This document shows, one piece after another, positions 36,184-41,762 of a DNA stretch of 64,000 nucleotides. The notes below the pieces were generated by a model. That model saw only the letters and a program-made list of their open reading frames with translations. It was not told the DNA's origin and searched no databases. The stretch lies in NCBI RefSeq assembly GCF_000024405.1, contig NC_013517.1, forward strand, positions 2,108,001 to 2,172,000, read 5' to 3'. Position 1 is the first letter of the stretch. Each line of letters starts with the position of its first letter. Source of the DNA: Sebaldella termitidis ATCC 33386 (GTDB lineage Bacteria > Fusobacteriota > Fusobacteriia > Fusobacteriales > Leptotrichiaceae). A program made the position numbers and the translations under genes.

Positions 36184-37008
36184 ATGAGAAGGTTCATGAT
36201 CTTATTTTTGTTATTATTTACGGCAGTATTTGTTTTTGGGGATATGCTTCATTCTGATTATCAGGTAAGTAATGACAGAGTCTATTTAATTAATCCGATT
36301 TTTTATGAGAATATAAAAGTTAAAGATGCAGGTAACGGAAGATATGAAGTTACTGACACCGGAGATTTTAATTTTATTTCGAATTCCGGAAGAAATATCG
36401 CTTTTTCTCTGAAAAACGGCGAGCTTACCGGAAGCTTTACGGAATATTATGAAAACGGATTGAAATTATCAGAGGGAAGTTATGTAAACGGGAAAAAAAA
36501 TGGAAAATGGTATACGTATAATGACAGCGGTAGAAGATGGATACAGGAAACGTATAAAGATGGAAAGCTTGACGGCGAGTATGTGGAATGGTATTCGAAT
36601 ACAGGACAGGAAAAAATAAAGGGAAACTATGTCAATAATAAGAGAGTAGGAAAGTGGAATACTTATTATACCAACGGTCAGAGAGAATCAGAAGGCAGCT
36701 ACAGCAATAACCAGAAAGACGGTAAATGGACAACATGGTATAATTCAGGAATAAAAAAACTGGAAACAGAATATTCTAATGGTGAAATATCGGGAGATGA
36801 CATAGCTTATTACGAAAACGGCAATGTTTTTTATAAAGGAAAATATCGTAATGGCGAAGGAAGTGTTGTTTCTTATTTCAGTTCGGGAGAGCTGAAGTTT
36901 GAAGGGAACTATAAATTAAGAAAAAAAGAGGGTACATGGAAATACTTTGATAAAAGTGGAAATATTGTAGCTACAGAAATATATAATAACGGAATTTTAC
37001 AATATTAA
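36184..37008 (+). CDS. Secreted MORN-variant repeat protein (YwqK-like)
   Basis: The 274-residue protein has a signal peptide (residues 1-19, ending FVFG). About seven repeats of the MORN_2 type follow, with units such as G-S-Y-V-N-G-K-K-N-G-K-W-Y-T-Y recurring every 22-24 residues from about residue 80 to the end. YwqK-family proteins are often annotated as antitoxins, but here an exported repeat protein is all the sequence shows. Its partner or ligand is unknown. AAAGGAG lies before the ATG. The gene at 40986 ends in a similar unit. Confidence 0.8.
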   Translation: MRRFMILFLLLFTAVFVFGDMLHSDYQVSNDRVYLINPIFYENIKVKDAGNGRYEVTDTGDFNFISNSGRNIAFSLKNGELTGSFTEYYENGLKLSEGSYVNGKKNGKWYTYNDSGRRWIQETYKDGKLDGEYVEWYSNTGQEKIKGNYVNNKRVGKWNTYYTNGQRESEGSYSNNQKDGKWTTWYNSGIKKLETEYSNGEISGDDIAYYENGNVFYKGKYRNGEGSVVSYFSSGELKFEGNYKLRKKEGTWKYFDKSGNIVATEIYNNGILQY

Positions 37009-39134: not shown

Positions 39135-40790
39135 ATGAAAGTAATATTGGATAAAAAGTTAATAAATGAAAAAGGATTAAAGGATTTTGATCTGGATCCT
39201 GTTAATAAAGACCTTGTTGCTGTGGGGAAGAAGCTTTATTTTGTATCGCAGGATTTGGAAGGAAAAGTAATTATTAAGGAACTCGGCGGAAAATTGAAGA
39301 ATATAGAGGGAGTAAAATTTATAAAGGAAGAAAATCAGCTCTTTGTATCAAATTCTTTTCTTGTTCTGACTATGTACGGGGAGATTTTCAAATATTATGA
39401 CAGAAAACATAAAGCGTCCAAAACAGTGTTTTCTATGGAAAGAACACCTGATTATATAAATTTTACCACAAATGGGAAGATAATATATCTGATGGACGAT
39501 ACTCTTTATTCATATAATCCTAATTCCGAAATGACTATAAAAAAGCCTGTTATTAATAAAAATAATGAAAACAGAGGGAAATACAAAATATATGTAAACG
39601 GTGAAAATATAGTATTAAAGCATCGTGCACTTCATTCACAGGAAAATACCATAAGTATTTTTGATGAGAAGCTGGAAGAGATTTTTAATATAAAAACTGT
39701 AAAAAATCATATATACTCAAGTATATCAGAACTTCAATATATTGCAGGCACAGAAGACGGAGAAGTGGAAATATGGGATGTGATCACAAAAGAGCTTTAT
39801 AATTCCGTGAAGATAAGCGACTATCGCATATCTTACATTGAAAAGACAAAGGAAAATTACCTTCTAGGTCTCTCTTCGGGAGAATTAATCATAACAGACG
39901 AAAAATTCAGAATAGAGAAAAAGCTGAATCTTCATAAAGGCGATATTTTGAAAATAAAGGCCAATGATGAAAGAATATTCACACTTGGAATGGATTATAA
40001 TATATTAAGTCTGAAAATATTGAAAAATGAGGAAACTGATATTGAAAGACGCGGCTTTATGCAGGAATATAATATAAATGACGAATATTTTGAGTTTTTT
40101 ACTTATGAAAGAATAGAAGCTGTAAGAAATTTTATAAGAGAATTAAAAATAAAAAATATATCATATAATCCAAAGGAAAATCTTATATTTAAAGTATTTT
40201 CAGAGCCGCTTTCGGAACAAAAAATATGTATACCGGTAAAAGAGCCGTATACTCAGGGAAATACCGCAACAGGACTTGCATTGGAAATGGAAAAAAATTC
40301 ATGGACTGATCCCGAACTGAATAATTCTTTGAGAAACATACTGAAATTGCTTTATAAAACATATATGGGCACTTCAAAAGATTTGAATTATATAAGGGAA
40401 GATATAGAAAAGCATATATTTAATATTCTTCCTCCGGACAAAATTTTTAAATACTGGCAGAAAAACGGAGTACTTCTTTTGAATACGGTTTTGACAATTG
40501 CGGAAACAAAAGCAGCTGATCATAGTAAATTTTGGACACCTTTTACACAGGAACTGCTGGAATTTATCTCAGAAAAAAATAAAAATATCACATATTTTTT
40601 ATGGGGAAAAGATGTGCAGGCATTTGAGAAAAATATAAAAAGCGGAGAAATAATCAAACATAATCATCCGTCTGTATGGGGAAATCCTGAAAATGAGAAA
40701 GATTTTTTGAACAGCAGCTCATTTGAGAAAACAAAAGGAATTATAAACTGGCTTGGGTGTGAAATGGAACGAAAGACGACATTATTTTAA
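39135..40790 (+). CDS. Beta-propeller protein fused to a divergent uracil-DNA-glycosylase-like domain
   Basis: The 551-residue protein has an N-terminal propeller-like region (about 1-300). Its short repeats resemble WD40 blades, for example GTEDGEVEIWDVITKEL near 205 and HKGDILKIKANDERIFTLG near 267. Residues about 318-540 match family 1 uracil-DNA glycosylase along their length: YNPKENLIF, then KEPYT where UNG has QDPYH, GLALEM for GLAFSV, LLLNTVLT and NHPS. N450 (UNG N123), H511 (H187) and Y372 (Y66) are kept. Asp64 is E370, His67 is T373, Phe77 is L383 and Leu191 is W515. It may be a weakened glycosylase or a binding protein. The start is supported only by weak GGCGG spacing. Confidence 0.8.
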   Translation: MKVILDKKLINEKGLKDFDLDPVNKDLVAVGKKLYFVSQDLEGKVIIKELGGKLKNIEGVKFIKEENQLFVSNSFLVLTMYGEIFKYYDRKHKASKTVFSMERTPDYINFTTNGKIIYLMDDTLYSYNPNSEMTIKKPVINKNNENRGKYKIYVNGENIVLKHRALHSQENTISIFDEKLEEIFNIKTVKNHIYSSISELQYIAGTEDGEVEIWDVITKELYNSVKISDYRISYIEKTKENYLLGLSSGELIITDEKFRIEKKLNLHKGDILKIKANDERIFTLGMDYNILSLKILKNEETDIERRGFMQEYNINDEYFEFFTYERIEAVRNFIRELKIKNISYNPKENLIFKVFSEPLSEQKICIPVKEPYTQGNTATGLALEMEKNSWTDPELNNSLRNILKLLYKTYMGTSKDLNYIREDIEKHIFNILPPDKIFKYWQKNGVLLLNTVLTIAETKAADHSKFWTPFTQELLEFISEKNKNITYFLWGKDVQAFEKNIKSGEIIKHNHPSVWGNPENEKDFLNSSSFEKTKGIINWLGCEMERKTTLF

Positions 40791-40838: not shown

Positions 40839-40985
40839 TATATGGCGGTCATACAGGAATTAGCAGGCTGTTATTTTATAAAATCGGGAATAAAATGATT
40901 ATTTCTTGTAAATTATACACTAAAGTATTATAATAAAAATATATTTAAGTATTACTAAAATATTATGATAAGAGGTGATTTTATC

Positions 40986-41762
40986 GTGAAAAAGGTGATA
41001 TTAATGTTAATGACATTATTGTCCGTAGGAACATTCAGTGCATCGGAGATAGCATGTGTGGAAACAAGGGAGCGTCCGAGACCTGAGGGTGTGGTAATAA
41101 AAGGAGACGGTATATATTATGACAACAAAAAGGTAGATACTGATGTGGAAAAACCAAGAATTTTGAAAAAAAAGTATGATCTTGAAAATTTTTATAAAAG
41201 TGATAACGAATTAAAGCTGAAAAGACAGGGAGATGAAGGTTACAGAGCTGAAAACAACGAATACTTTATTACAGCCGGGAGACTTTATTATAAAAATTAT
41301 CAGATAAATAAAAATAATTATAAAAATCTGGCAGCGGTAGGGCAGGTACGGTATTCTACCACAGGTCACTGCAGTACATATACTGTATATAATGACATTA
41401 TAAAAGCTGATAATTCCTATATAATAGGAGGAAACAGCTATGCTTCCATAAATAAATATATTTCTGATGTCCTTGGAAATGAAAATGTAAAGTTGTTTTA
41501 TATTTTGCTGGATAACAGACTTACTGTATATAATTATTTTGAAAACGGGTCGTTTATGAATAATTATGTGTATAATTCATCAAAAAATATGTTTATAGCC
41601 GATGGCGTGCAGGAAGTAAGGGACAAGAATTACAAAATTTTATATAAAACGACTTTTAAAAACGGAACAGGATATATGAAGGTTTATGATGACAGTCTGA
41701 GCCTTGTGGAGGAAGGAAAGTACGAAAATTCCAAAAAAGTAGGCAACTGGAAGTCATATTAA
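40986..41762 (+). CDS. Secreted protein of unknown function with C-terminal MORN-like unit
   Basis: The predicted 258-residue protein starts at GTG 40986, chosen because AGAGGTGA lies 8 nt upstream and the product then begins with a clean signal peptide (MKKVILMLMTLLSVGTFSA). An ATG at 40965 would precede the ribosome site. The mature part is rich in Tyr, Asn and Lys, with stretches like YYKNYQINKNNYKNL that recall DKNYY-type exported proteins. The last 40 residues (FKNGTGYMKVYDDSL...GKYENSKKVGNWKSY) form one MORN_2-like unit, as in the gene at 36184. Confidence 0.65.
   Translation: MKKVILMLMTLLSVGTFSASEIACVETRERPRPEGVVIKGDGIYYDNKKVDTDVEKPRILKKKYDLENFYKSDNELKLKRQGDEGYRAENNEYFITAGRLYYKNYQINKNNYKNLAAVGQVRYSTTGHCSTYTVYNDIIKADNSYIIGGNSYASINKYISDVLGNENVKLFYILLDNRLTVYNYFENGSFMNNYVYNSSKNMFIADGVQEVRDKNYKILYKTTFKNGTGYMKVYDDSLSLVEEGKYENSKKVGNWKSY

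Follow-up and report, generated by a model that had tools for sequence, protein, structure and literature searches.

A single ORF of Sebaldella termitidis joins, by profile match and structural model, a WD40 β-propeller to a family 1 uracil-DNA glycosylase (UNG) domain with an altered active site. It lies in a 64,000-nucleotide stretch, here called the window (G000:C1:2108001-2172000 of the 4.49 Mb genome). The reading that we favor, at a probability of about 0.55, is that the ancestral propeller-UNG protein was the resident uracil glycosylase and that the Sebaldella form is now a weakened or non-catalytic DNA-binding module maintained by purifying selection. This would be a case of a redundant enzyme that loses its function or takes on another, with no new kind of system involved, and it offers a natural experiment on how a DNA repair enzyme fares after a second copy has been acquired.

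The complete ORF (39135..40790, forward strand, as are all features below) encodes 551 aa and has full-length homologues at 38–86% identity in 15 other Leptotrichiaceae genomes. Residues 1–296 (39135..40022) are all β and form the WD40-type propeller, which also occurs as a stand-alone protein in Leptotrichia-like genomes. In the AF2 model, it is followed by a linker helix (residues 298–311) with a short connection (40023..40085), after which comes the UNG-like domain (residues ~318–541, 40086..40757). Pfam WD40 models matched residues 175–290 with scores below the curated whole-domain cut-offs, and the whole-chain AF2 model (mean pLDDT 88) contains a ring of four-stranded blades. Foldseek matched the whole model to WD40 rings such as WDR5 (TMt 0.72) and also to β-TrCP. 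The window propeller has this fold in common with characterized WD40 proteins but no close sequence match among them, and differs in being fused to a glycosylase domain.

The C-terminal domain was identified by NCBIfam UNG models matching residues 322–537 (E values of 9e-26 to 6.7e-19), although the scores did not reach the equivalog cut-offs (91 versus 162 bits and 86 versus 185.75) and that of Pfam UDG was slightly below its own (21.3 versus 24.3). PDB sequence matches were to S. aureus UNG and other UNGs. A model of the domain built with 32 relatives (mean pLDDT 91, pTM 0.88) has the α/β UDG fold, and its best 50 Foldseek matches in the PDB were all family 1 UDGs, with TM scores of 0.63–0.77 normalized by target length. 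The profiles, two confident models and 50 fold matches bear out the original prediction of a propeller fused to a family 1 UNG homologue, and relatives that keep the residues equivalent to N450 and H511 were found as well. A non-UNG identity or chance match was ruled out by the NCBIfam profiles and fold matches; a frame artefact or pseudogene was ruled out by the full-length relatives and a dN/dS of 0.10.

Motif A, the water-activating loop (VKEPYTQGNTATGLALEM, residues 368–385, 40236..40289), aligned without gaps from V368 against the E. coli sequence GQDPYHGPGQAHGLAFSV from G62; few parts of either model are less certain than this motif (pLDDT 62–67). The gapless correspondence proposed earlier held for motif A: D64 is E370 (codon GAG, 40242-40244), H67 is T373 and F77 is L383, while Y66 is kept as Y372; the exchange of Q63 for K369 is to be added. 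The window protein has VKEPYT instead of GQDPYH, whose water-activating Asp is present in intact relatives. The uracil-recognition motif LLLNTVLT (residues 447–454, 40473..40496), supported by PDB matches and alignment, retains N123 as N450, and H187 is retained as H511. In UNG chemistry, D64 activates water and F77 stacks. PMC13160076 cites this role of D64. A literature search for activity data on D64E found none. A family 4-type Glu was considered and rejected: the family 4 Glu aligns with Q63 rather than D64, so it provides no precedent for E370 (PMC5387724).

Motif C, which includes the former Leu-intercalation loop, reads HNHPSVWGNPENEKDFLN in the window (residues 509–526, 40659..40712) where canonical enzymes have HPSPLSxxRGFFG. 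The HPSPLS loop is absent, its place taken by HPSVWGNPEN, and no residue aligned with the intercalating L191 in a 41-sequence alignment. W515, previously taken as the L191 equivalent, is unsupported in that role because the loop after HP has been rebuilt; most relatives have Cys in its column, and a Trp there is limited to two Sebaldella. In sum, the window protein shares with canonical family 1 UNGs (E. coli Ung and S. aureus UDG 3wdf) the fold, N123, H187, Y66, an LLLNTxLT motif and the order of motifs, and differs in D64E, Q63K, H67T, F77L, the rebuilt loop, a stretch from motif A to LLLN that is longer by ~20 residues, and the N-terminal propeller.

Relatives were surveyed in 96 Fusobacteriales genomes. 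The full fusion was found in 16 of them, all Leptotrichiaceae: that of the window and 15 others of the family, in which the original prediction had advised a search. Stand-alone propellers of ~290 aa (289–295 aa) occur in two Leptotrichia-like genera, g3 and g6, the latter probably Leptotrichia itself, and stand-alone UNG-like proteins of ~240 aa in three other Fusobacteriales families. Plasmid-borne stand-alone relatives were found in Ilyobacter, Haliovirga, Alkaliphilus, Rossellomorea, Virgibacillus, Aneurinibacillus and Pontibacillus, and more distant ones in hundreds of viral contigs, of which the 80 examined were all shorter than 300 aa. A contig scan with the full protein as query returned one stand-alone relative only, and no whole fusion was detected on phages or plasmids at 80% coverage. 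Published papers, within an incomplete coverage of the literature, yielded no WD40-UNG fusion.

In the tree, fused and stand-alone proteins of Fusobacteriota and Bacillota form one branch (36 rows, support 100/100) to which neither canonical nor phage UNGs belong. On this sequence evidence, the domain is one of a divergent subtype of family 1 UNGs (DPYPQ/HNHPAICG), whose marks are DPYPQ..VATG(L/R)(A/S)FEV and HNHPAICGNL..DFLNG. The fused proteins sit together within the branch (support for the fused group itself 86/78), a placement by which a single fusion took place at the root of Leptotrichiaceae. The stand-alone proteins share with the window protein the subtype characterized by DPYPQ..ATGLAFEV and HNHPAICG, the T533/W539 end and 31–47% identity, but have no propeller, and D64, Y66, F77, N123 and H187 are all intact in 20 of 20 members. 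An example is Ilyobacter ILYOP_RS11880, which is annotated as a uracil-DNA glycosylase and matches PHROG 12143. Window positions 40086-40757 also match this phage family, which is labeled ‘unknown function’; it matches the subtype with E values of 4e-28 to 1e-35 and is probably a uracil-DNA glycosylase family. Although the subtype has neither the HPSPLS loop nor H67, no other family 1 UNG was found in many genomes that carry it, and its members are annotated only as ‘uracil-DNA glycosylase’ or match an unnamed phage family. Vaccinia virus UDG (D4) resembles the subtype in having GIDPYP, with Pro at the H67 position, HPA in place of HPS and no intercalating Leu (PMC1936997). D4 is also a UNG with a role independent of catalysis (PMC1936997). 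It differs from the window protein in keeping D68 (D64) and F79 (F77), in lacking a propeller and in having the partner A20, and the likeness is taken as an analogy rather than as demonstrated kinship.

The state of the fused domain was compared with the presence of a canonical UNG, whose cut-off was passed in 66 of the 96 genomes. A separate canonical ung, for which the original prediction had advised a search, is present in the genome of the window. No genome with the stand-alone subtype has an intact canonical UNG, and in all 14 aligned stand-alone members from Fusobacteriota, each from such a genome, D64, Y66, N123 and H187 are kept. Among the 16 genomes with the fusion, a canonical UNG is present in eight (G000, G088, G064, G066, G081, G085, G090 and G091) and absent from seven (G067, G083, G084 and G092-G095); in the last, G087, which is 87% complete, none was found, and the fused domain is eroded, with P65-Y66 deleted. 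The fusion is the only UDG-superfamily match in G083, and the other fused genomes without canonical UNG also encode a short UDG-superfamily protein of ~190 aa. All propeller-only genomes carry a canonical UNG. As a separate observation, G055 contains a broken canonical UNG (L175, G055:C2:64500-65600), of which a 117-aa frame and a detached C-terminal piece are present but not the part between them, together with an intact stand-alone DPYPQ-type UNG, a replacement in the opposite direction.

Where the genome has no canonical UNG, D64 and F77 are each kept in 7/7 fused proteins; where it has one, D64 is kept in 1/8 and F77 in 3/8. D64E accordingly occurs in seven of the eight fused proteins beside a canonical UNG, that of the window included. 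The erosion centers on motif A: at positions invariant in stand-alone members, retention there is 61% with and 91% without canonical UNG, compared with 85% and 90% in the rest of the domain. At least one change among D64, Y66, N123 and H187 was found in 7/8 versus 1/7 (Fisher p = 0.010, kinship ignored); with kinship considered, the correlation is not significant, as the 3–4 independent pairs, none of them contrary, are too few to test. Exceptions are G090, which keeps D64 beside a canonical UNG, G084, which has N123S without one, and the incomplete genome G087, in which the eroded form stands with no canonical UNG detected. The surface charge of the UNG domain, taken as a marker of lost DNA binding, did not differ between groups. 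These comparisons qualify the ‘rewired active site’ of the original prediction: the site is changed in the window, but the change is not part of the build, as fused relatives without canonical UNG keep D64, Y66 and F77. Similarly, uracil recognition is largely retained in the window but not in all fused proteins, since those of G084, G085, G066 or G087 lack N123, H187 or Y66.

The direction of change was read from the trees. The canonical UNGs of Leptotrichiaceae are not one group but are scattered among those of other Fusobacteriales (moderate support): those of Sebaldella, g10, g2 and g3/4/6/7/9 are placed apart, and that of g2 adjoins another family's. Several gains are the simplest reading of this scatter, and canonical UNG thus seems to have been acquired more than once in Leptotrichiaceae. 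In the sister pair G085 (canonical UNG present) and G084 (absent), UNG-domain branches are 0.44 and 0.11, while propeller branches are equal (0.157 and 0.154); the branch-ratio test gave p = 0.06. The Leptotrichia-like stand-alone propellers nest inside the fused ones, which indicates that the fused state is older and that the UNG domain was lost in that lineage; no UNG remnant was detected downstream of these propellers. In one of the Leptotrichia-like genomes, the stand-alone propeller gene is itself split into frames of 162 and 80 aa (L053, G070:C1:1686405-1687276) and is likely a pseudogene.

Such a loss raises the alternative that only the propeller matters and that the UNG-like domain is a passenger on its way out, a process already complete in the Leptotrichia-like lineage. 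Consistent with it are the propeller-only proteins of g6 and g3 with their clean downstream sequence, the P65-Y66 deletion in G087 and a UNG domain that evolves faster on most tips with a canonical UNG. Between the window and G088, the two closest Sebaldella, the frame is uninterrupted and the UNG-like domain has a dN/dS of 0.102, the propeller one of 0.072; against G087, the value for the UNG-like domain is 0.19. A value of ~0.10 indicates that the domain is still under purifying selection, and together with the structural residues W390, N401, W441, W467, P512 and F530, which are kept in all, it makes the passenger explanation unlikely.

Under the favored reading, of a resident glycosylase turned weak or non-catalytic, a divergent family 1 UNG would have been fused once to a WD40 propeller in the Leptotrichiaceae ancestor, and members without canonical UNG would retain an intact domain that presumably works as a uracil glycosylase and is docked through the propeller. 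In the genome of the window, an acquired canonical UNG would have made the activity of the fused domain redundant, after which motif A may have been remodeled by D64E, H67T and F77L. Given this remodeling, uracil excision by the window protein is probably very weak or absent; with the water-activating Asp and the stacking Phe gone, strong weakening is expected, which favors a weak or non-catalytic DNA-binding module. Purifying selection would have retained the fold, N123 and H187, and the most likely present role of the domain within the propeller protein is that of a module for uracil/abasic-DNA binding or for structure. Homology, the single fusion, the gene-content correlation and purifying selection are drawn here from sequence and models; activity loss, DNA binding and propeller docking are what we infer.

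The nature of the D64 changes is pertinent to a different proposal. Every one of them, in eight members, is to Glu (codons GAA/GAG), through about four separate changes on the tree. Retention of an acid is unlike free decay and may mean residual catalysis. The domain could then be an altered but active glycosylase in which Glu still activates water and the F77L/H67T pocket makes excision slow or directs it elsewhere, for instance to an oxidized or modified pyrimidine ignored by canonical UNG. The intact Y372, N450 and H511 of the window protein and the purifying selection agree with this, and glycosylases of other specificity with weak UDG homology exist (Brig3, PMC13160076). However, the Glu-bearing G066, G085 and G087 have lost Y66, N123 or H187, so that the overall pattern is more one of loosening; no common new residue pattern replaces the lost one, and the motif A loop is modeled with low confidence. 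We consider continued activity of this kind possible but doubtful. A broader formulation, in which convergent D64E and pocket changes repeatedly made a propeller-docked family 1 UNG into a uracil/abasic-site reader or a slow, specificity-changed glycosylase beside a newly acquired canonical UNG, is put forward only tentatively and is rather improbable. Because the close species G084/G085 and G090/G091 are not alike in canonical UNG content or at the catalytic Asp, loss, change and retention of function can be compared directly.

A role as a sensor or decoy for phage proteins or DNA, such as a UNG-inhibitor sponge or a reader of uracil-containing phage genomes, was also weighed. Related UNGs are common in phage contigs, and the subtype lacks the HPSPLS leucine, as does the vaccinia enzyme, which is not inhibited by Ugi (PMC1936997). 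Against this, PADLOC gave no match and no defence genes adjoin the fused gene, whose neighbors are housekeeping genes; the protein therefore does not qualify as a Brig-type anti-phage DNA glycosylase or other defence component, and we regard the sensor or decoy role as highly improbable. Among the functions initially suggested, a weakened glycosylase is still a live option, while an inhibitor found no support.

Gene neighborhoods are clade-specific, and no operon is conserved across the family. The run exoIII – unknown – trmB – fusion – guaB – ligA is confined to one clade (L149, L151 and L152, in G064, G091 and G090), and in Sebaldella the fused gene lies upstream of polA. The exoIII/ligA and polA neighbors fit base excision repair, loosely and differently by clade. 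A promoter and terminator scan gave no more than chance. Two probably secreted proteins with MORN/YwqK-like repeats are encoded near the fused gene (window 36184-37008 and 40965-41762); the latter stands between it and polA in both the window and G088, whereas G087 lacks it. The Sebaldella relative G088 has a further UNG fusion of independent origin (contig C50, L155:2773-6012), a 1079-aa ORF that begins with a UNG of canonical motifs (GQDPYHG and HPSPLAANGGFFG) and has KWGFIN-like (WG) repeats, a repeat family recognized by eye, in its remainder.
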